This document shows positions 8,750 through 19,827 of a stretch of DNA of 64,000 nt, one piece after another. This DNA is from Anaerolineae bacterium. Lineage in GTDB: Bacteria > Chloroflexota > Anaerolineae > Aggregatilineales > Phototrophicaceae. Numbering within the stretch: the stretch's first letter is position 1; every line of letters starts with the position of its first letter. Where the stretch lies: the NCBI GenBank assembly GCA_022826865.1, contig JAJDUC010000037.1, positions 1 to 64,000 of the forward strand. Direction: 5' to 3'. The notes under the pieces are model-generated. The model made no database searches. It saw only the letters and a list, made by a program, of their open reading frames with translations, and was not told where the DNA came from. The position numbers were made by a program, and so were the translations under genes.

Positions 8750-9480
8750 TGAAAAGGCAGCCCCCTTGCAAGAGACGGCGCGCATCCCGGCGTTGGCTCT
8801 GCTTTGCCATCTGCTTCTGCCTGGCCGCCTGCAACCTGCAGGGCCGGGCTGCCGTTTCCAACCGCGCCCAGGCGACAGCCACTCCAGCGGGGCCGCCCTC
8901 AATTACGATCTCGTCGCCGAAGGCCGGTGACGAATTTGTCATCGGGGAGGAAATCCTGGTCTCGGTTCTGGCCGGCGATAGCATCGGCGTCACCCGCGTA
9001 CAACTATTCGTCAATAATCAGATCGTCCGAACGGTTTCCTCCGAATCTTTACAAGGCGAACTGGCGATGCAGGCGATTCTGGATTATGCGCCGCAACAGG
9101 TCGATCTTGGCGAGATCACTTTGCGCGCATTGGCTTATCGCGGCCCGGTGGTCAGCAGCCCCGATGAGATCACAGTTGTCGTTCGCGAATCGCATTCGCA
9201 AGTCATAGCCACTCCGGTTCAGCAGTCAAATGTGCCTTTTATCCCCAACGATGGCGTTTGCCGCGCCTTGGTCAATGTGGATTTAAATTTCCGAACGGGG
9301 CCGAGCACGAGGTACCAGATCATCTCGGTCTTGGCCAGCGGCACATTGGCGCCAATCACCGGGCGCAACAGCGAGCACAACTGGTGGCGACTCAACGTCA
9401 ACAACCAGATCGGTTGGGTTAGCGGCGACTTCACCACCGAATATGGCGATTGCAGTCGCGTGGCGGTGGTCGCCGGCTGA
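8749..9480 (+). CDS. SH3b-domain lipoprotein
   Basis: A secreted lipoprotein of 243 aa. The start chosen is ATG 8749, sharing one base with the miaB stop. It gives a classic lipoprotein signal: basic MKRQPPCKRRRASRR, a hydrophobic stretch, then lipobox L-A-A-C with Cys28. A longer in-frame reading from 8668 inside miaB would bury this signal. Residues ~50-150 look like an Ig-like or cadherin-like extracellular module (ITISSPKAGDEFVIGEEILV). The C-terminal ~65 residues are a bacterial SH3 domain (VDLNFRTGPSTRYQIISVL, then WWRLNVNNQIGWVSGDF). It probably binds cell-envelope material; the exact role is unknown. Confidence 0.85.
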   Translation: MKRQPPCKRRRASRRWLCFAICFCLAACNLQGRAAVSNRAQATATPAGPPSITISSPKAGDEFVIGEEILVSVLAGDSIGVTRVQLFVNNQIVRTVSSESLQGELAMQAILDYAPQQVDLGEITLRALAYRGPVVSSPDEITVVVRESHSQVIATPVQQSNVPFIPNDGVCRALVNVDLNFRTGPSTRYQIISVLASGTLAPITGRNSEHNWWRLNVNNQIGWVSGDFTTEYGDCSRVAVVAG

Positions 9481-9492
9481 GCGCAAATTCAT

Positions 9493-9520
9493 TTGTCGCG
9501 TCCCCCGTTTGTGATAAAAT
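9493..9520 (+). promoter_or_regulatory. Candidate sigma70-type promoter
   Basis: TTGTCG at 9493-9498 and TAAAAT at 9515-9520 are 16 bases apart, 41 bases before the start of the receiver-domain gene. The match is fair rather than strong. Confidence 0.5.
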
Positions 9521-9561
9521 CGCTGCTAGGGTCCTGAGTCACGAAAACGCGGGAAAGCGAT

Positions 9562-11502
9562 ATGGCGATTGCTTTGAAGCGGATCATGCTGGTCACGCGC
9601 AATGTTCAATTTGCAATCGATGTCAAGCGGGCTTTGGAAGCGCTGGGCGAATACAGCGTGACGACCGTAGCCGACCTGCGAAACGCGATCGAGCAGTTGC
9701 GCGATACGCCACAGCAATTGGTTCTGCTCGATACGGATGGCCTGAGCATAGCGCCGGATATCTTGCTGGAGATGATTCAGGCGCGTCAAAACGAGATCGC
9801 CATTGTGCTTGCGCCGGACCGCCCAAATGTGCATGAACTGGCGCGCCAACATGGCGCGCGCGGCGTGGTGGATATCCCCGTGATGGCCCGCGATCTGCTG
9901 CCAATCCTGGAATCGGCCCTGCAAGACAACGGTGATGCGCCTGAAGAAACAAACGGGACGGCCGCGGTCGATCTTGGCGAAGATACCATTTTCATTGAGT
10001 CTCTGGTTGATGATGCTCTCGGGCAGGACCAGGCGCTCAATTATACGCGCCGCCGCTTGCAAGCCTCTTATGAATTGCTGCATCCGCCGATCGAAACGGC
10101 AGTCGACAGCACGGCGCCGGCTGCGATGGAGTTCCTCATTGAGCCTGAAGACGAAGGTGATACCGTGCGCTTTACTTATGTTCGGGGCGTTGAGGCGACC
10201 GCCTCAACGACGCTGAACCAGGGAAGCTTTGGCGCCGGCGAGACGCCGTTGGCGGCCGGCAGCGACAGCGAAACCCTCCGCGATCTGGCGCGGTCGCTGG
10301 CTGTCGAGCGCCCGGACGATGTGCAGCCGCTCCTCAGCGTGGCGCAGCCCGACATCGACAATCGCGAACCGCAAGACAGCGCGGGCTTCCTGCAAATGCT
10401 GAATGCGGTTTTGGACGAGAGTACCGCCCTGGAAAACCTGACCCTGGAATCGCTCTTTGATACAACGCGAGAACTGCCGGACGCCCTGGGCGCGGGCGCC
10501 GTTCCGAACTGGCTGCGCGAGACCGAAAAGTTCATCAACGAGCCGAGTTTCCTGAAGGAGCATTTGCCTCCGCTGGAAGCGCAGGAGACCGTCGCCGAGA
10601 CGACATTGCCGTCTCCCGTAGATGAGCCGCCTTCTTCTGCAGGGGATTCGGACAACGCGCCATCAGCGGTCAATGGAGATGACAAGCGCGGCGCGCCCTT
10701 TGTTGAAGAGGTCTGGACGCCGCTGTCGCGGCGCGAGCGCGATCCCTATTTGGCGCAGCTTGCGGTGACGATGACGCAGCAGATGACCGAGCTGACCGCC
10801 GACGCCACTGTTTTGACCCTCGATGGGCGTATTGTCGCCTATTCCGGCGAGTTGTCGCTGGAAAAATTTCGGGATTTGCGGGCGGCGATCGGCGATGATT
10901 GGCAAGCGCCCAGCAGCCAGGCCCGTATTCGTTTTCTTCGCCTGCCGGGCGGCAAGTCAGATTATATGCTTTACTCCCGCGGCGCCGCCGGCGGCTACAC
11001 CCTTTCCATGGTCTTCGCTGGCGGGGTGCGCCTGCAAGACATCCGTCGGCAAGGCGACCGCATGCTGAGCGCGCTTGTGGCGGTACCGGATGGCCCTGCG
11101 CCTGAGGAGGCCGTCCCGGTAGATTCTAGGGATCCGGTAGTCGCGGAATCGAGGCAGCCTTTCGCCTTTGTCTGGCTGGTCGCGGATCCGGAGTTGTACT
11201 TGCGCCGGCCTGTCGCCGAGCAATTGGTGTTTTGGCTGGAAGTCCAATTGAACAGCTTGGACTGGAAGATCAATCGCCTGGATGTGCATCAAGACTTCGT
11301 CCACCTGCGCGCCGATGTGCCGGGGCGCGTGCCGCCTGAGCAATTGATGCGCACGGTCATGGAGCGATCACGTCGGATCGCCTGCTCCGAAGACCGGGCG
11401 CTGCCCGAAGATCTATGGGCCGATGCCTACCTGGTGCTGCAGCCCGGTCGCGACATAAGCGAGCGCGAGTTACAAAGTTTCTTGCAATTCGCCCGCAACT
11501 GA
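9562..11502 (+). CDS. Receiver-like / roadblock-like / IS200-fold multidomain protein
   Basis: A 646-aa cytoplasmic protein of unknown function. Residues ~5-125 resemble a response-regulator receiver fold (RIMLVTRNVQFAIDVKRAL, then LVLLDTDGLSIAPDILLEMI). A long acidic, low-complexity linker follows (~130-390). Residues ~395-505 (QQMTELTADATVLTLDGRIV, then GGYTLSMVFAGGVRLQD) look like a roadblock/LC7-type module. The last ~105 residues resemble the Y1/IS200-like transposase fold, with the helix LPEDLWADAYLVLQPGRD. The HUH motif reads Phe579-Val-His581, so the first histidine is lost and the domain is probably not a nuclease. These domain calls are by eye. Neighbours (lipoprotein, polA) do not suggest a role. 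Confidence 0.6.
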   Translation: MAIALKRIMLVTRNVQFAIDVKRALEALGEYSVTTVADLRNAIEQLRDTPQQLVLLDTDGLSIAPDILLEMIQARQNEIAIVLAPDRPNVHELARQHGARGVVDIPVMARDLLPILESALQDNGDAPEETNGTAAVDLGEDTIFIESLVDDALGQDQALNYTRRRLQASYELLHPPIETAVDSTAPAAMEFLIEPEDEGDTVRFTYVRGVEATASTTLNQGSFGAGETPLAAGSDSETLRDLARSLAVERPDDVQPLLSVAQPDIDNREPQDSAGFLQMLNAVLDESTALENLTLESLFDTTRELPDALGAGAVPNWLRETEKFINEPSFLKEHLPPLEAQETVAETTLPSPVDEPPSSAGDSDNAPSAVNGDDKRGAPFVEEVWTPLSRRERDPYLAQLAVTMTQQMTELTADATVLTLDGRIVAYSGELSLEKFRDLRAAIGDDWQAPSSQARIRFLRLPGGKSDYMLYSRGAAGGYTLSMVFAGGVRLQDIRRQGDRMLSALVAVPDGPAPEEAVPVDSRDPVVAESRQPFAFVWLVADPELYLRRPVAEQLVFWLEVQLNSLDWKINRLDVHQDFVHLRADVPGRVPPEQLMRTVMERSRRIACSEDRALPEDLWADAYLVLQPGRDISERELQSFLQFARN

Positions 11503-11641
11503 TCCCCCGCGACATATGCCAATTGCTGATTCTCTCCTGGACTGGCGCCGGTCGCGTCCTTGCCAGGGAAATCTATCACTTTTGCCGCGCATGGATTATA
11601 CTTTGCCCCACCAGGCAAAGAAGAGAGACGAAGCTAATTTC

Positions 11642-14431
11642 ATGGAAGAGCGCCCGGTACTCTATCTCATTGACGGGCATGCCTTGGCCTATCGCAGCTA
11701 TTTCGCGCTGCAGCGGGGCGGCTTCACGACATCCAGCGGCGAAAGCACCAGCGCAGTGTTCGGTTTCAGCCGGACCCTGCTGGATGTCTACGACCATTAT
11801 CAACCAAAATACCTGGCGGTCGCCTTTGACGAGGGCTTGAGCGCGCGCGAGGAGATTTATCCCGAATATAAGGCGACGCGCGAGAAGATGCCCGACGATT
11901 TGCGCGCGCAATTGGAGCGCATTCGCGAGCTGGTGGCCGCTTTCAACATCCCGCAATTGACGCTGCCGAACATGGAAGCCGACGACGTAATGGGCACAAT
12001 ATGCCAGCAGGCGGTCGCGCAGGGCCTGGATGTGCACATTGCCACGGGCGATCGCGATATTCTTCAACTGCTCGGACCGCATGTCCGTGTGCAATTGCCG
12101 CAGCGCGGCGGCGACGATGTGGTTTTTGACGAAGCCGCTTTTCGCGACAAGTATGGCATTGAACCCAGCCAGTTGATCGATTTGAAAGCCATGATGGGCG
12201 ACAGCTCGGACAATATCCCCGGCGTGGCTGGCGTCGGCGAAAAGTCGGCCACGCAGCTTCTGCGGCAATATCAGGATTTGGAAGAAATCTACGACAATCT
12301 GGATGATATCGGCACGCGCGTGCGCAACAGGCTGATTGCCGGAAAAGACATGGCTTATCTCAGCCGCAAACTGGCGACCATCATCTGCGATCTGGATATC
12401 CAGCTTGATCTGGACGCCTGCGTCGGCGGGGATTTCGCCTTGAAGACGGTGGACGATGTCTTCTCCGAACTTGAATTCAGAACCCTGCGTGAACGCCTGC
12501 ACCGCGTTTACGGTCAACTTCACGGCGAAGAAATCGAAACCGGGATCGCCAGCGCCCACGAAGTGGTTGAGACCATCGTTGTGCGCGATCCAGCCGCATT
12601 GGAGGATTTGGTCGCTGCGCTGAATTCAGCCAGCATGATTGCCTTTGACACCGAGACGACAGGCATTGATCAGATGTCGGCGGAATTGGTGGGCATCTCC
12701 CTCGCGGTGGATGAAGAACGCGGTTTCTACGTGCCGGTGGGTCACCGGTCGTCCGGCAGTCACGGGCAGTCGGATATGTTCGCCCAGCCGGTCGGCTATC
12801 AACTGCCATTGGATGGCGTAATCGACGCCTTGCGCGGGCCCATGCAAAACCCGGATATTCCCAAGACCGCCCACAATGCCGTATACGATTTGATGATTTT
12901 GCGGCGATATGGCATCGAGGTCGCGCCCATCGCCTTTGACACCATGCTTGCCGAATGGGTGACCAACCCGATCAGCAAGTTTCTCGGCTTGAAGGCATTG
13001 GTTGCGCAACTGCTTGATGTGCAAATGACGGAAATCTCTGAATTGCTGGGCAAGGGCAAAGACCAAAAGACGATGGATATGGTGGAGATCGAAGACGCCG
13101 CGCCCTACGCCGCCGCCGACGCGACCATGACTTATCGCCTGGTCGAGCCCTTAAAAGCTGAATTGCGCGACTCCGGGCTGGAGCGACTTTATAGCGAGTT
13201 GGAAGCGCCGCTGATCCCGATTATCAGCAGTATGCAATACACCGGCGTCACGCTCGATGGCGATTTCCTGCGCGAAATGAGCGTCCGCCTGGCGGATAGC
13301 ATTGGCAAACTGCAGGAGTCGATTTATGACGCCGCCGGAATCGGCAAGTTCAACATTGGAAGTCCCAAGCAATTGAACAACGTTTTATTTGAAGTGCTGG
13401 GCCTGCCAACCGTCGGGCTCAAGAAAACCAAGCTCGGATATTCGACCGACTCCACAACGCTGGACGCGCTGAAAGATGCGCACGCGATCATCAATATGAT
13501 TGTCGAGTATCGAGAGCTTTCCAAATTGAAGAGCACCTATGTTGATGCGCTTCCCAAGTTGGTCAATCCCCGTACCGGCCGCCTGCACACGAGCTACAAT
13601 CAAGCCGGGTCGGCGACCGGGCGTTTCAGTAGCAACAACCCCAATTTGCAGAATATTCCCATACGCACGGAGATGGGGCGCGAAGTGCGCCGGGCATTTG
13701 TTGCGCCGCCTGGATATGCGCTGCTCGCCGTCGATTACAATCAAATCGAGTTGCGCGTGATGGCGCATATCAGCCAGGATGAGACTTTGATTGACGCTTT
13801 CCAACGCGGGCTCGATATCCACCAGGCGACGGCGGCCGCCGTCAACGGCATTGCTCCCGGGGATGTGACCTATGAGCAGCGCAGTTTCGCCAAGCGGGTC
13901 AATTTTGGCCTGATGTATGGCATGGGCGCGTTCCGCCTGGCGCGCGACAGCGACTTGACGCTGACGGAGGCGGAAGACTTCATTTCGACCTATTTCGAGC
14001 GCATGCCCGGTGTCGAAAAGTACATCCAGCAAACGAAAGCCTGCGTCTGGGAAAACGGCTATACCGAGACGCTTTACGGCCGGCGCCGGCTATACCCGGC
14101 GATCAAGTCAAACGGCAACCGCCGCAGCACGTCCGCCGAGGAGCGCGCCGCCATCAACATGCCGATTCAAGGCACAGCCGCCGACATTCTCAAACAATCG
14201 ATGATCAATCTGCACGACCGGCTCGGCGCCGAGGGCTGCGCTGCCAGCATGATCCTGCAAGTGCACGATGAGTTGGTCCTGGAAGTCAAGGCGGACGAGT
14301 TGGCGCATGCGCGGGACCTGGTGGTCGAGACGATGGAATCGGCCTTTCCCGATGGCAAGCCGCTGAGTGTGCCCCTGCGCGCGAATGCCAGCTTCGGCAG
14401 GAATTGGCGTGATATGGAGGAAATGGACTGA
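11642..14431 (+). CDS. polA: DNA polymerase I
   Basis: Replicative gap-filling and repair polymerase with three domains. The 5'-3' flap exonuclease occupies residues 1 to ~290 (LIDGHALAYRSYFAL; MEADDVMGT; ATGDRDILQLL; GDSSDNIPGV). The 3'-5' proofreading domain (~320-500) keeps its acidic residues: Asp336 and Glu338 in FDTETTG, the H-N-x(3)-D motif and Y-A-A-A-D. The polymerase domain has motif A (LLAVDYNQIELRVMAHIS), motif B (RSFAKRVNFGLMYG) and motif C (QVHDELVLEV). ATG 11642 gives MEERPVLYLIDGHA, the normal family start. Upstream in-frame starts at 11516 and 11591 add unrelated residues. All three activities look intact. Length is 929 aa. Confidence 0.96.
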   Translation: MEERPVLYLIDGHALAYRSYFALQRGGFTTSSGESTSAVFGFSRTLLDVYDHYQPKYLAVAFDEGLSAREEIYPEYKATREKMPDDLRAQLERIRELVAAFNIPQLTLPNMEADDVMGTICQQAVAQGLDVHIATGDRDILQLLGPHVRVQLPQRGGDDVVFDEAAFRDKYGIEPSQLIDLKAMMGDSSDNIPGVAGVGEKSATQLLRQYQDLEEIYDNLDDIGTRVRNRLIAGKDMAYLSRKLATIICDLDIQLDLDACVGGDFALKTVDDVFSELEFRTLRERLHRVYGQLHGEEIETGIASAHEVVETIVVRDPAALEDLVAALNSASMIAFDTETTGIDQMSAELVGISLAVDEERGFYVPVGHRSSGSHGQSDMFAQPVGYQLPLDGVIDALRGPMQNPDIPKTAHNAVYDLMILRRYGIEVAPIAFDTMLAEWVTNPISKFLGLKALVAQLLDVQMTEISELLGKGKDQKTMDMVEIEDAAPYAAADATMTYRLVEPLKAELRDSGLERLYSELEAPLIPIISSMQYTGVTLDGDFLREMSVRLADSIGKLQESIYDAAGIGKFNIGSPKQLNNVLFEVLGLPTVGLKKTKLGYSTDSTTLDALKDAHAIINMIVEYRELSKLKSTYVDALPKLVNPRTGRLHTSYNQAGSATGRFSSNNPNLQNIPIRTEMGREVRRAFVAPPGYALLAVDYNQIELRVMAHISQDETLIDAFQRGLDIHQATAAAVNGIAPGDVTYEQRSFAKRVNFGLMYGMGAFRLARDSDLTLTEAEDFISTYFERMPGVEKYIQQTKACVWENGYTETLYGRRRLYPAIKSNGNRRSTSAEERAAINMPIQGTAADILKQSMINLHDRLGAEGCAASMILQVHDELVLEVKADELAHARDLVVETMESAFPDGKPLSVPLRANASFGRNWRDMEEMD

Positions 14432-14502
14432 AGCTGTCTCCAAAGCGATCGCGCCTTCCCATCTGTCCAACCTAAAACTGAATGGAAAGAACCGACGACC
14501 CG

Positions 14503-15420
14503 ATGAAACATTTTCTTGATTTGGCAAGCTGCTCAACGGAAGAACTCCAGGACCTGATGGACCTGGCGCTGGAATTGAAGGCCGAGTGGCGCGCGGGCGG
14601 GAACAAGCCGAGCTTGCGCGGCAAGACCCTGGGCATGATTTTCCAGAAGCCTTCCCTGCGCACGCGCGTGTCCTTCGAAATGGGCATGCGCCACCTCGGC
14701 GGCGACGCCATCATGTTGGGACCGCATGAAATCGGCTTGGGCGTGCGCGAGAGCGTTGGGGACGTGGCGCGTGTGCTTTCAAGTTATGTGCATGGCATCA
14801 TGGCCCGCGTCTTTGACCATGCCGATGTGCTGGAATTGGCGGCGCATTCGCGCGTGCCGGTCATAAACGGTTTGAGTGATGACTACCATCCCTGCCAGGC
14901 GCTGGCGGATATCTTGACGATCCGCGAGCGCTTCGGCCGCCTGGACGGCGTGAAGCTGGCATTCGTCGGCGACGGCAATAATGTGGCCGCCTCGGTGGCG
15001 CTGGCCTGCGCCCATTTTGGGGTCAGCTTCAGCATCGCCACGCCGGAGGGATATGAAATGAAAGCGCCAATCCGCGATCAAGCCTTTGAAGTTGCCAGTC
15101 GCAATGGCTCGGGGCTGACCATGCACACGCGCCCGCAAGTGGCTGTGGCTGATGCCGATGTGGTCTACACCGATACCTGGGTCAGCATGGGGCAGGAGGC
15201 GGAAGCCGCCGAACGCGCCGGTGAATTTGACGACTTTCAGATTAACGAAAGTCTGTTGCGCTGCGCCAAGCCGACGGCCATCGTCATGCACTGCCTGCCG
15301 GCTCATCGCGGCGACGAAATCACCGACGATGTAATGGATGGCGCGCAATCGATGATCTTTCTGCAAGCGGAAAACCGCATGCACGCGCAGAAGGCCATCC
15401 TCCTCCGCTTGCTTGGCTAA
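14503..15420 (+). CDS. argF: Ornithine carbamoyltransferase
   Basis: Makes citrulline from ornithine and carbamoyl phosphate in arginine synthesis. The carbamoyl-phosphate loop reads KPSLRTRVSFE, a Ser-Leu-Arg-Thr-Arg variant of the usual S-T-R-T-R. HPCQALAD, DGNNVAASVALA, YTDTWVSMGQEAE (ornithine-binding SMG loop) and MHCLPAHRG are all present. The start MKHFLDLASC at 14503 matches the family; an upstream in-frame ATG at 14482 would add seven residues. Length is 305 aa. It follows polA by 71 bases with no other arginine gene nearby, so it is an isolated biosynthetic gene. A catabolic role cannot be excluded by sequence alone. Confidence 0.95.
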   Translation: MKHFLDLASCSTEELQDLMDLALELKAEWRAGGNKPSLRGKTLGMIFQKPSLRTRVSFEMGMRHLGGDAIMLGPHEIGLGVRESVGDVARVLSSYVHGIMARVFDHADVLELAAHSRVPVINGLSDDYHPCQALADILTIRERFGRLDGVKLAFVGDGNNVAASVALACAHFGVSFSIATPEGYEMKAPIRDQAFEVASRNGSGLTMHTRPQVAVADADVVYTDTWVSMGQEAEAAERAGEFDDFQINESLLRCAKPTAIVMHCLPAHRGDEITDDVMDGAQSMIFLQAENRMHAQKAILLRLLG

Positions 15421-15529
15421 GCCGCTGCTTGCCAGCCCCGCTGCTCGCAAGCCTCCGTAAGGCTCGTCCGGTACTGGTTAATGCTACCGCGCTTTTTCTA
15501 CCCCATCCCCCAACTACCTTACCGGTAGT
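15421..15529. other. Intergenic spacer after argF
   Basis: A short non-coding stretch. AGCCT/AGGCT could pair near 15451-15466, but no T-run follows, so I do not call a terminator. Confidence 0.4.
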
Positions 15530-15696
15530 GTATCAGAATCGATTGAATTTCCTAAAATGCCGACGATTTGGTAGGGGCGACTGACGGGCTGTGTCCACGC
15601 GCCCCGGTGAGTCGCCCAATTGCGATTCTGTTCGTACCCATCGGGCGATCCGCCGGATCGCCCCTGCCAGACTATTTCAACCAAAATAGATACATT
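15530..15696. repeat. Repeat family B, copy 1 (MITE-like)
   Basis: About 167 bases shared with 25929-26094. The core starts GGTAGGGGCGAC and ends TCGCCCCTGCC, near-perfect terminal inverted repeats. Inside are two stems: GGGCGACT/AGTCGCCC around a GC-rich loop, and GGGCGATCCG/CGGATCGCCC. Less conserved flanks include GTATCA on the left and ACTATTTCAACCAAAAT on the right. The termini resemble those of family A (GTAGGGGCG), but the interior is different. Confidence 0.8.
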
Positions 15697-16160
15697 AGCC
15701 CCTTCCCTAAGGTCAGTGTAGGCGGTCAGTTTCTACGCGACCTACGTGACCCGTAGCAACGGAGAAGGGGAGCTAACGTAGCGCGAACTCGCTTGTATAC
15801 GGCAGCAATCGATGCTTGAATCATCAGAAATAAGTATCGCTGCAACGTTGAAACGAGCTTCCCCCCATTGCCATGGATCTCGTAGACACAGACCTTCGGG
15901 GGATTGAGGGGGTAGACCGAAACGAAAGCGACTTTGCCAGTGCCAGACAAGCCTCTACAAGGCGTCGACGACATATACACCTAAAGCGTGGATCTGGCGC
16001 TTCAAGGCCGGCGTCTGATTCGTCGCGCCATTGCCAGCGCGGCTGTGTAAACAGTGTTAGAATGTCGTAGCTACAATGGAAGCAAGCGGTTAATACAAAT
16101 AGCTAAACTATCCGCGCTCGGGCCGCGACGGCCGGCGCGGCGCGTGTCGAAAGAGACGCC
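15697..16160. other. Non-coding or decayed stretch before cdaA
   Basis: No convincing gene. A minus-strand reading frame of 84 codons (15726-15980) contains GLSGTGKVAFVSVYPL but has no recognisable domain, no good start and no neighbour logic. Base composition is less GC-rich than the genes around it. It could be a gene remnant. The cdaA promoter should lie near its right end, where TAGAAT occurs at 16058-16063 without a well-spaced -35. Confidence 0.35.
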
Positions 16161-17036
16161 GTGGAACAGATACTACTTATTTTGCAAAGCCTGGAGTTGA
16201 CCGATATCTTCGATATCGGCATCGTTACATTGCTCTTTTACAGCATTACATTCATGTTTCGCGGCACACAGGCGGTCGCCTTGATGCGCGGCATCGCGCT
16301 GCTCGTCATTGGCTTGATTTCCATCGCGGCGGTTTTCCGTCTCGAGGCCTTGAGTTGGCTCTTGGCCAACAGCTTGACCGCGCTCGTCATTGCGGTGCCG
16401 GTGATATTCCAGCCGGAAATTCGGCGCGTGTTGGAGCGCTTGGGGCGGGGTTCAGTATTCGGCACGCGCCTGGCGCCGCACGAGATTCGCGTCTCCGTGA
16501 TAAACGAAGTATGCGTCGCCGCCGATAAATTGTCCGAGCGCAGACATGGCGCCTTGATCGTCCTGCAGCGCAACAGCAGTCTGCAAGCTTTCATACGCAC
16601 CGGCATTCAGATGGACAGCATGGTCACTGCTGAATTGCTGGCGACGGTATTCTGGCCCCGCACCGAATTGCACGACGGCGCGGTCATTGTCGATAACACC
16701 GGGCGCATCGCGTCCGCGTCCAGCGTCTTGCCGATCACCGCCAGCCGCAATCTGCCCAATCCCAATTTGGGGACGCGGCACCGGGCGGCGGTTGGCATCA
16801 GCGAAGTCGGCGATGCCCTCTGCGTGATTGTCTCCGAAGAAACCGGCAAGATCTCTGTGACCAATGCCGGGCGCATGATCCTCGACCTGGACGCGCAGCG
16901 CTTACGGCTCATCCTCAGCGCCTATTACGGTCCCGCGGACGATGTTTCGCTATCTATGCGCGCCCGCCTGCGCGAGGCCGCCGACGAGCTTTGGCTGCGC
17001 ATGAAAACGCGCCGCCGGCAGCAGGCACAATCATGA
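16161..17036 (+). CDS. cdaA: Diadenylate cyclase CdaA
   Basis: Membrane-bound enzyme making cyclic di-AMP from two ATP. The N-terminal ~85 residues contain three transmembrane segments (VTLLFYSITFMF; IALLVIGLISIAAVF; LTALVIAVPVIF). The DisA_N catalytic domain follows, with Asp172-Gly173-Ala174 in LHDGAVIV and Arg206-His207-Arg208 in GTRHRAAVG, the nucleotide-binding signatures. The start is GTG at 16161. It overlaps the YbbR-domain gene by four bases (ATGA), the classic cdaA-cdaR arrangement. Cyclic di-AMP controls potassium and osmolyte uptake and envelope homeostasis in many bacteria. Length 291 aa is normal. Confidence 0.95.
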   Translation: MEQILLILQSLELTDIFDIGIVTLLFYSITFMFRGTQAVALMRGIALLVIGLISIAAVFRLEALSWLLANSLTALVIAVPVIFQPEIRRVLERLGRGSVFGTRLAPHEIRVSVINEVCVAADKLSERRHGALIVLQRNSSLQAFIRTGIQMDSMVTAELLATVFWPRTELHDGAVIVDNTGRIASASSVLPITASRNLPNPNLGTRHRAAVGISEVGDALCVIVSEETGKISVTNAGRMILDLDAQRLRLILSAYYGPADDVSLSMRARLREAADELWLRMKTRRRQQAQS

Positions 17037-18337
17037 TTCGCCGCTGGCTGGAAAGCGACATGGGCAGTAACTTGCTCTGGCTGGCGGTTTCGCTCTTGCT
17101 GGCGAGTGGTGTCTGGTACATAGCGGTGACTTCGGCCGACCCGATCGAACAACGCCGCTTCTATAATCGACCGATCCAGTTTGTGCCCAGTCGAACAGCG
17201 GTGATGACAGACGCCGCCGCGCGATCCGCCAATGTGACCATCCAAGGTTCGCAGACGACAGTTTCGTCGCGGCGCGCGGAAGACATTGTCGTTCGCGCCG
17301 ACTTGTCTCGCTTGGGGCCGGGCACGCATAATGTGCCGCTTGTGGCCAGCGTCGCCAGGCCGGAGACCAATGGCTTCCGTCGCCTGGTCACGCATACGCA
17401 GCCATCGCAGGTTACGGTCGAATTGGAATCAACGGCATCGCAGGAAAAGAAGATTCTGGTGGAAGTGTCGGCGTCGCCGCCGATCGGTTTCCGCCATGAT
17501 GAGCCTATTCCAGACATCGACCAAGTCATCGTGAGCGGCGCCGCCAGCCGGGTTTCCCAGGTTGTTGCTGTGCTTGGAGAATTGGACCTGTCGACGAGCC
17601 GCAATCCTATCGCCTTTGACCTGCGCCTTTACGCGGTTGACGCCGATGGCGAGCGCGTTGACGCGGTGGAATTGGAACCGGCCACGGCAACCGTCAATGT
17701 CAAGATCAAGCGGCGCGACGACATCAAGCAGATCGCCGTGCGCCCGAACATTCTCATCGGGACCCAGCCGCAGGGCTACACCTTCTACGATTTCAGTTAT
17801 GATCCGTCGTCCCTGTTCATTAGCGGAGCGCCCGATCAATTGGAGCAAATCGCCGATACCTTGTTCACGGAACCGATCAGTCTGGAAGGGCATCGGGAAG
17901 GGTTTGTTACGACCTTGCCGGTGCGGCTGCCCAACGAAGAACTCTTTGTTATGGGCGGCGACAATAACATCACCGTTTCAATTGAAATCGTGCCGATTAT
18001 CGACTCGCGCCAAATTGATGACATCAGCGTTGAGCATATTGGGCTAGGCGCGGATTACACGATTTCGATCGTGCCGACGACTGTTTCCGCCATCATCACC
18101 GGCCCGGTCGTGCAGGTCGACGCGCTCGCGGCGGCCGACATTCAAGTGATTCTCGACTTGGAAGGACTGGTCCCAGGCGTCTACGATGCGGCGCCGACAA
18201 TCTATATTACGGGCGCGGACTTGAGCGAGGACAACGTCTCGCTGTCGCCGTCCGAGCTCAACGTCGAGATCGCCGTCGCCGAAACGGAGGCGCAAACGAC
18301 CGAAGTTGACGCTTCCGCCGATTCCGCCGCTGGCTGA
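17033..18337 (+). CDS. cdaR: YbbR-domain protein, CdaA partner
   Basis: Membrane-anchored regulator of diadenylate cyclase. The start ATG 17033 overlaps the cdaA stop as ATGA; an in-frame ATG at 16991 would run deep inside cdaA. One N-terminal transmembrane helix (LLWLAVSLLLASGVWYIAV, residues ~11-29) is followed by an extracytoplasmic region of tandem YbbR repeats. These are recognisable from recurring strands such as NVTIQGSQTTV, IVSGAASRVSQV, FISGAPDQLEQI and IITGPVVQVDAL, about four units. The C-terminus is acidic and Ala-rich. Length is 434 aa. Context makes the CdaR assignment strong. Confidence 0.88.
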   Translation: MIRRWLESDMGSNLLWLAVSLLLASGVWYIAVTSADPIEQRRFYNRPIQFVPSRTAVMTDAAARSANVTIQGSQTTVSSRRAEDIVVRADLSRLGPGTHNVPLVASVARPETNGFRRLVTHTQPSQVTVELESTASQEKKILVEVSASPPIGFRHDEPIPDIDQVIVSGAASRVSQVVAVLGELDLSTSRNPIAFDLRLYAVDADGERVDAVELEPATATVNVKIKRRDDIKQIAVRPNILIGTQPQGYTFYDFSYDPSSLFISGAPDQLEQIADTLFTEPISLEGHREGFVTTLPVRLPNEELFVMGGDNNITVSIEIVPIIDSRQIDDISVEHIGLGADYTISIVPTTVSAIITGPVVQVDALAAADIQVILDLEGLVPGVYDAAPTIYITGADLSEDNVSLSPSELNVEIAVAETEAQTTEVDASADSAAG

Positions 18338-18423
18338 TCGGCGCAGCTTTTGTCTACCGCTTCGGCTGCGCGCGCACTACAATTCTCTCGCTACGCAAAT
18401 GAACCTGGGGATAGCGCCTCAAT

Positions 18424-19827
18424 ATGACCAGAAAAGCGGTCGTCGCCCTGGTCGGACGTCCGAATGTCGGCAAAAGCACCCTCTTCAACCGTCTGGTGGG
18501 CGAGCGGCAGGCCGTCACGCATGAGATTCCCGGCACAACTCGGGATCGCCTGCTCGGCGAGTCATTTTGGAACGGCGTGGCTTTTCAGGTCGTCGACACT
18601 GGTGGCATCGAAGTCTACCAGCCGGCCGGGTCCCGTGATGAATCGCCGCTGGCGGAAGGCAGCGCAGACTTCGTCGAAGAGATCATCAGCCAGGCCATGA
18701 TCGCGATCGCGGACGCCGATGTCATCGTGCAGCTCGTTGATGCGCAGTTTGGCGTAACCGCCGCGGATGAAGCCATCGCAGAGATCTTGCGCCGGTCCGA
18801 CCGGCCTGTGTTGGTGGCGGCCAACAAGATCGACGACAAGCGACAAGAACAGGAAGCCTATGACTTTTACCGGCTTGGCCTCGAGGCCGTTGTCGGCATC
18901 AGCGCGATACATGGCTTGGGCGTCGGCGATCTTCTTGATGAGGTGGTGCATGCTTTGGGAAGTCTGGCGGCGGATCTGGCGGACGATGCCGACGATGACC
19001 ATCTCAAAATCGCCATTGTGGGACGGCCGAATGCCGGAAAGAGTACCCTGCTAAACAAACTGATCGGGCATGATCGCGCGATAGTAAGCCCGGTAGCCGG
19101 CACCACGCGCGACGCCATCGATACCGATATCGTCTGGTTTGGCGAAAGGGTCACGCTGATTGATACAGCCGGCATTCGGCGCCGCGGGCGGATTCAGGCG
19201 GGCGTTGAGAAATACAGCGTCATTCGCGCGATGAAAGCCATCGCGCGGGCCGATGTCGTATTGCTGGTGATTGACGCTGAATTGGGCGTGACGGAACAAG
19301 ACGAACACATCGCCGGATACATCATCAACGAATACAAGAGCCTGGTAATTGTGGTCAACAAATGGGACGCCGTCGAAAAAGACGCCCAATCCATGCAAAC
19401 GTTTATGGCGCGCATTCGCGACCGGCTGCATTTCGTCAGTTACGCGCCCATCATATTCATCAGCGCTTTGGAAGGGCAGCGCATTCACCAGGTGCTCGAA
19501 GTGGCGCACCGCGTTTGGGAAGCGCGTTTCTTTCGCATGCCGACCGCTGATATCAATCGGCTGCTGAGACGGGCGGTTGAGAAGCATCCACCGCATGCCA
19601 AAGGCGCCAAGCGGCTGAAATTCTTGTATGCGGCTCAGGTTCGTACCGATCCGCCCGTGATCCTCTTTCACGTCAATGACCCGAAGCAGGTCCATTTTAC
19701 CTACAAGCGATATCTTGAGAATCAGTTCCGACAGGCATACGAATTCGAGGGCACGCCGATCCGCATGAGTTTTCGCGCTCGCGATGAACGCCGCGCCCGT
19801 AAAATGAAACGGGACGGGCCGGAATAG
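18424..19827 (+). CDS. der: Ribosome-assembly GTPase Der (EngA)
   Basis: Essential double-GTPase needed for 50S subunit maturation. The first G domain has GRPNVGKST (~11-19), PGTTRD, DTGG and NKID. The second has GRPNAGKST (~200), AGTTRD, DTAG and NKWD. The C-terminal KH-like domain ends with basic residues (RDERRARKMKRDG). Length 467 aa is typical. The start ATG 18424 gives MTRKAVVALVGRPNVG. It lies 86 bases after cdaR on the same strand. Confidence 0.96.
   Translation: MTRKAVVALVGRPNVGKSTLFNRLVGERQAVTHEIPGTTRDRLLGESFWNGVAFQVVDTGGIEVYQPAGSRDESPLAEGSADFVEEIISQAMIAIADADVIVQLVDAQFGVTAADEAIAEILRRSDRPVLVAANKIDDKRQEQEAYDFYRLGLEAVVGISAIHGLGVGDLLDEVVHALGSLAADLADDADDDHLKIAIVGRPNAGKSTLLNKLIGHDRAIVSPVAGTTRDAIDTDIVWFGERVTLIDTAGIRRRGRIQAGVEKYSVIRAMKAIARADVVLLVIDAELGVTEQDEHIAGYIINEYKSLVIVVNKWDAVEKDAQSMQTFMARIRDRLHFVSYAPIIFISALEGQRIHQVLEVAHRVWEARFFRMPTADINRLLRRAVEKHPPHAKGAKRLKFLYAAQVRTDPPVILFHVNDPKQVHFTYKRYLENQFRQAYEFEGTPIRMSFRARDERRARKMKRDGPE

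Follow-up and report, generated by a model that had tools for sequence, protein, structure and literature searches.

A receiver–roadblock protein with a catalytically dead TnpA-fold domain, usually encoded directly upstream of polA in Anaerolineae

TnpA transposases of the IS200/IS605 type are standalone proteins of ~130–150 aa, often multi-copy and mobile. In IS608 and ISDra2, the TnpA fold recognises hairpins of single-stranded DNA, and both the TnpA fold and the roadblock fold form dimers in characterised proteins. A 2018 survey of TnpA-Y1 proteins delineated non-IS subclasses with extra domains and treated the HuH/Y core as shared (PMC6006769); the words fused, roadblock, and response regulator are absent from its main text. 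On the side of roadblock proteins, MglA/MglB systems have already been linked to response regulators, and in Group 3 MglA systems a receiver–linker–winged-helix protein is encoded beside mglA/mglB (PMC4316618, a survey of prokaryotic Ras/MglB proteins). No description of a receiver–roadblock–Y1 architecture was found in the open-licence literature searched, which agrees with a preliminary description of the present locus that knew of no such system.

The DNA analysed here (the window) is a stretch of 64,000 nucleotides from an Anaerolineae bacterium (contig JAJDUC010000037.1). The open reading frame at issue is real, and its 646-aa product consists of a receiver domain, a long linker, a roadblock domain, and an IS200/IS605 TnpA-fold (Y1) domain (Table 1). 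We consider this three-domain anatomy, together with the loss of catalysis in the Y1 domain, to be near certain. We class the protein as an atypical receiver protein whose Y1 domain is domesticated and dead.

Table 1. Coordinates of the fusion gene, its domains and key sites, and the adjacent polA gene in the window.
Feature	Position	Strand	Basis
Promoter-like site TTGTCG-16-TAAAAT, TG before −10; weak	9493..9520	+	1 site against a chance expectation of 0.6
Receiver / roadblock / dead-Y1 fusion gene, 646 aa	9562..11502	+	ORF and genus orthologs
Receiver domain, residues 1–123	9562..9930	+	AF2, Foldseek 3crn, Pfam on relatives, site table
Acidic low-conservation linker, residues 126–386	9937..10719	+	Conservation profile, charge
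Divergent roadblock/LC7 domain, residues ~394–511	10741..11094	+	AF2; VIA to MglB
IS200/IS605 TnpA-fold (Y1) domain, residues ~527–646, catalytically dead	11140..11499	+	PF01797, VIA, profile
HUH position F579-V580-H581, HxH lost	11296..11304	+	Alignment to TnpA
Catalytic Tyr position, here Phe640	11479..11481	+	Alignment to TnpA
polA, DNA polymerase I	11642..14431	+	NF004397 E 0; conserved neighbour

The N-terminal region had been described as receiver-like, and the AlphaFold2 (AF2) model of residues 1–135, built like the other model from alignments of the window and locus proteins, indeed has this fold (mean pLDDT 82.8, pTM 0.75) and matches receiver domains of the PDB such as 3crn (Foldseek, E 4.6e-9). 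The Pfam model Response_reg reaches only E 0.0064 in the window protein but matches 20 of the 31 relatives aligned (best E 9e-12); Y1_Tnp is found in 21 of the same 31 (best 3.4e-10). Since Pfam matches occur at both ends of the relatives, the receiver and Y1 parts are homologous domains, and chance resemblance is ruled out by these matches together with the fold search and the profile match to the PDB given below. The phosphoacceptor Asp57 (window codon 9730–9732) is kept in 33/33 genus receivers. The rest of the pocket is degenerate in the genus, with Thr12-Arg13 at the acidic pair, Ala84 at the Thr/Ser position, and Ile105 at the Lys position, so that phosphorylation signalling is doubtful there; the pocket is partly kept in families outside the genus. 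The earlier term signalling protein should therefore be used with care. The linker is as acidic as had been noted, with 52 Asp and Glu against 15 Lys and Arg residues (net −37). Within it, residues 277–335 (window 10390–10566) contain a short conserved stretch, ..DEST..P.WL...EP.FL, that is present in other proteins of the window's family (f1; f-numbers denote families and G-numbers genomes) and is a possible docking motif.

The segment described as roadblock/LC7-like has no Pfam match, including to the Robl_LC7 model, and belongs to the family by fold only. In the AF2 model of residues 388–646, its elements follow the order helix, two strands, helix, three strands, helix, and the VIA alignment places it close to MglB (6hjm, Z 11.5; 6h5b, Z 11.4) and to other roadblock chains of the Mon1/Rag type (Z about 11). 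The Foldseek RMSD values for the roadblock–Y1 model are large, and those of the second alignment (VIA) are 2.3–2.8 Å. Given the nearness to MglB in solved structures and the interface between MglA systems and response regulators (PMC4316618), the protein might be an MglB-like regulator whose roadblock modulates a small Ras-like GTPase, with the receiver and TnpA domains only controlling the roadblock. Such a role is weakened by the window's genome, which has no MglA-sized Arf-family match (PF00025 being the sole model tried), its only two matches lying in frames of 491 and 622 aa, and no small-GTPase gene stands directly beside the fusion gene, the neighbour being polA. MglA-sized PF00025 matches are present in some relatives, and standalone Robl_LC7 proteins are present in the window's genome. 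On this evidence, an MglB-like function appears unlikely.

The C-terminal resemblance to Y1 (IS200) transposases is borne out by sequence and fold. Residues 523–646 match PF01797 with an E-value of 3.5e-6 (27.6 bits, cut-off 23 bits), and the NCBIfam IS200 model gives E 1.4e-4, short of its equivalog cut-off. The comparison of the predicted structure with TnpA proteins that the preliminary description had proposed yields a ferredoxin-like Y1 fold with the order β-α-β-β-α-β-α, in which the last helix is of moderate confidence (block pLDDT 71–76). This model aligns with Sulfolobus tokodaii TnpA (2ec2) with a Z value of 14.3 and 2.5 Å over 105 residues, and with Deinococcus radiodurans DR_0177 (2fyx) with a Z value of 14.1 over 121 residues (VIA); the TnpA structures of ISHp608 (2vhg) and ISDra2 (2xma) are among its Foldseek matches. 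A profile of the roadblock–Y1 family finds 2f4f in the PDB by sequence alone (E 5.7e-9), and in this alignment HIH faces D-F-V-Y-L and the catalytic Tyr faces Phe.

The replacement of H-x-H by Phe579-Val-His581, reported for this protein, is correct, and the HUH motif is broken family-wide: both histidines are kept in 0/69 fusion-family sequences (59 + 8 + 2). In the alignment to TnpA proteins of the same class, 50 of the 59 sequences from the window's order have Phe or Tyr at the first position; at the second, 39 have Tyr and only two have His. Because residue 581 varies among relatives, with Tyr or other residues in most of them, His581 is ruled out as a remnant of the motif under selection. 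The catalytic Tyr, which the preliminary description had missed, is lost as well, being Phe640 in the window and Phe in 55/59 order sequences. In family f34, counted with one standalone relative, the HUH position reads YxQ and the Tyr is kept in 5/8. An active HUH nuclease or the gene of a mobile element would fit the PF01797 homology. However, the two histidines never occur together in relatives, the Tyr is absent in most, and the gene is single-copy with conserved synteny and without flanking repeats of the element type; a repeat search of positions 9300–11800 returned only two-copy, chance-like repeats and no REP-type or element-end pattern. On these residues, copy number, synteny, and missing repeats, this explanation is dismissed, its probability being close to nil, and the fusion gene is an inherited host gene.

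Whether a dead TnpA domain may have kept its affinity for nucleic acids is a separate matter. Over the same alignment columns, the Y1 domain of the window's order has a median net charge of −6 (range −14 to −1, 59 sequences), whereas canonical TnpA of the class has +8.5, family f34 +2, and the shorter TnpA type +2; as a guide to DNA binding, net charge is only approximate. Basic residues number 10 in the Y1 domain of the order versus 20 in canonical TnpA. Since the domain is acidic throughout the order, retained DNA binding is less likely there. The preliminary description had proposed a transposase domain recruited as a nucleic-acid-binding module: a conserved, dead domain of transposase type within a signalling protein is upheld, but its binding function is weakened by the acidity. 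In the main rival to the scaffold reading developed below, the dead domain would still bind single-stranded nucleic acid in folded form, such as hairpins, flaps, or possibly RNA. The protein would then be a nucleic-acid-binding regulator under receiver control that perhaps recruits PolA to such sites or controls the polA operon. The hairpin-recognising TnpA structures matched by the model (2vhg and 2xma) and the linkage to polA speak for this, and DNA-hairpin binding seems most credible in f34, judged from its mildly basic charge and mostly kept Tyr. Yet the net charge is negative in 59/59 order sequences, their basic residues are halved relative to canonical TnpA, and the locus shows no repeat or element-end pattern, so we hold this rival to be rather unlikely.

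The distribution of the architecture, whose survey had also been suggested, extends through the genus and several families of the class Anaerolineae. The fusion gene is present in one copy in 33/34 genus genomes, including the window's own, where it is the sole Y1 match. The exception, G012, also lacks a polA match; probably the locus is missing from this assembly, with no real loss. Three-domain relatives occur in families f3, f4, f6, f7, and f8 of the order and in f34, f41, and f58 outside it, while f17 and f61 have two-domain receiver–roadblock relatives without Y1. In family f2 of the same order, the fusion protein was not found, although polA is present. When 301 genomes from the phylum were searched with a roadblock profile, 26 matches were obtained, 24 of them in the class Anaerolineae. 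The named relatives are Chloroflexota/Anaerolineae MAGs, and the gene occurs in marine and other Anaerolineae.

A tree was built from 34 fusion Y1 domains and 30 Y1 transposases, the latter taken from the class Anaerolineae only, findable by the family profile and mainly of the IS200 type and short TnpA. In it, a single branch with support of 100/98, present in 200/200 bootstrap trees, separates the fusion domains from the transposases. This single branch is most simply explained by one capture, followed by inheritance and loss. The family Y1 profile did not pick up the longer RAYT-type proteins (RAYT, REP-associated tyrosine transposase), and the captured domain could conceivably have come from a RAYT. 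The proteins L101–L105, L180, L184, L187, and L192, which are two-domain receiver–roadblock proteins or consist of a receiver and an unrecognised C-terminal part, resemble the form that lacks the captured domain, and some of them abut polA. An f34 genome also encodes a standalone 194-aa dead-Y1 relative (L163, G087:C1:2408000-2409700) with YLQ at the HUH position, which groups with the f34 fusion domains in the tree. G042 carries the fusion gene on contig C5 and, besides it, a broken copy (L117, G042:C1:1456876-1458873) whose match contains 11 in-frame stops. Separately, RAYT-like Y1 domains in which HxH is intact lie in frame inside three long DNA methyltransferase ORFs: L170:1385-5332 (−) of the Eco57I type, with Y1 at 650–750 between two Eco57I stretches; L171:739-4359 (−) of the DUF1156 type; and L172:1362-5168 (+) of the N6_N4 type. 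The start of the Y1 insert is common to L171 and L172.

The position of the fusion gene directly upstream of polA is new here. In the window, polA starts 143 nt past the fusion gene's last codon, and no terminator-like site was found between the two genes. The same arrangement, in the same direction and with gaps of 64–355 nt, is present in 30/33 genus genomes; of the remaining three, two are cut by contig ends and G014 is unlinked (6 kb examined). Outside the genus, the adjacency recurs in f1 (gap down to 15 nt), f4, f34, and f58, and a TPR-protein gene then follows polA in f1 (G033), f4, f34, and f58. The two-domain receiver–roadblock genes reach polA without a gap in f17 (0 nt) and overlap it in f61 (−1), and receiver ORFs end 3 to 76 nt before the polA homology in f16 and f35. 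When 60 class genomes were scanned starting from polA, receiver or roadblock ORFs were found upstream in f16, f35, f12, and f42, and unrelated genes in most other families. Upstream of the fusion gene in the window are a miaB-family gene and a gene for an SH3/Ig-domain protein. Past polA, positions 14482–19827 (+) hold genes for ornithine carbamoyltransferase, CdaA (c-di-AMP synthase), an ORF without an NCBIfam match, and the Der GTPase.

The linkage to polA is therefore old and repeatedly kept, yet it could be inherited gene order. If so, the protein would act elsewhere and the link would have no functional meaning, as is suggested by the finding that polA is preceded by unrelated genes in most families. 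The adjacency is also absent in f3, f6, f7, f8, f41, and G014, so that the protein can work unlinked, and a functional tie has against it that f2 has polA but no such protein. Against mere inheritance, the order is kept between families of different orders, and the two-domain forms abut or overlap polA as well. We regard order without function as quite possible, if short of probable, and a functional tie of the fusion protein to PolA as an even chance.

Our best reading, which we hold somewhat below even probability, is that of a pseudo-receiver scaffold, linked to polA, in which a dead TnpA fold serves dimerisation and docking; the mechanism taken alone is a shade more tentative. On this view, the protein would act as a scaffold akin to an atypical response regulator and would have a functional tie to DNA polymerase I. 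As roadblock and TnpA folds are dimeric elsewhere, the dead TnpA domain may provide a dimerisation and docking surface instead of a nuclease, and its contacts in the window's order would be with proteins more than with DNA. The protein has a conserved LWADxY...PGR...F..R surface. The genus receiver would be an interaction domain mostly independent of phosphorylation, and the acidic linker with its short conserved motifs would tether a partner, proposed to be the PolA repair/replication machinery. The f34 members, mildly basic and mostly with the Tyr retained, make it possible that the family does not share a single mechanism. In a bolder version, the scaffold would be co-transcribed with polA and its dead TnpA domain would sense lagging-strand or repair intermediates (hairpins, flaps), thereby controlling the recruitment of DNA polymerase I. 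We think this improbable; if true, a transposase that once exploited single-stranded DNA at replication forks would have become a host regulator of replication and repair.

The HUH/Tyr core is retained in the non-IS Y1 proteins (RAYTs and relatives) as described to date. Here, the TnpA fold is kept and its chemistry lost within a signalling protein, beside polA and across families of one class. This makes the family a clean case for uses of the TnpA fold without catalysis, such as dimerisation or hairpin recognition, and hints that DNA polymerase I may have an uncharacterised partner in Chloroflexota.

Compared with known systems, the fusion protein shares with atypical (pseudo-receiver) response regulators a receiver fold with a degenerate pocket, but its output end is a dead transposase domain. 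Its roadblock has the fold of MglB and other roadblock/LC7 proteins (6hjm, 3t1r), although it is missed by the Robl_LC7 model and has no MglA-sized partner in the window's genome. The Group 3 MglA partner resembles it in having an N-terminal receiver-like domain, a long variable linker, and a C-terminal putative DNA-binding domain; in that protein, however, the C-terminus is a winged helix, the same chain carries no roadblock, and the gene lies beside mglA/mglB rather than polA. Like the TnpA-Y1/RAYT superfamily (PMC6006769), which includes non-IS Y1 proteins with extra domains, the fusion family combines Y1 with other modules, but it has lost the conserved HuH/Y core of that superfamily. RAYTs have this core and flanking REP-type repeats, whereas the fusion gene has neither. 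With IS200/IS605 TnpA, to which it is homologous by profile, the fusion Y1 domain shares the fold and the LW..xY core motif. Yet it has no HxH, its Tyr is mostly Phe, and it is acidic in the window's order; unlike TnpA, it stands behind a receiver and a roadblock in a 646-aa protein, encoded by a single-copy gene in a conserved position.
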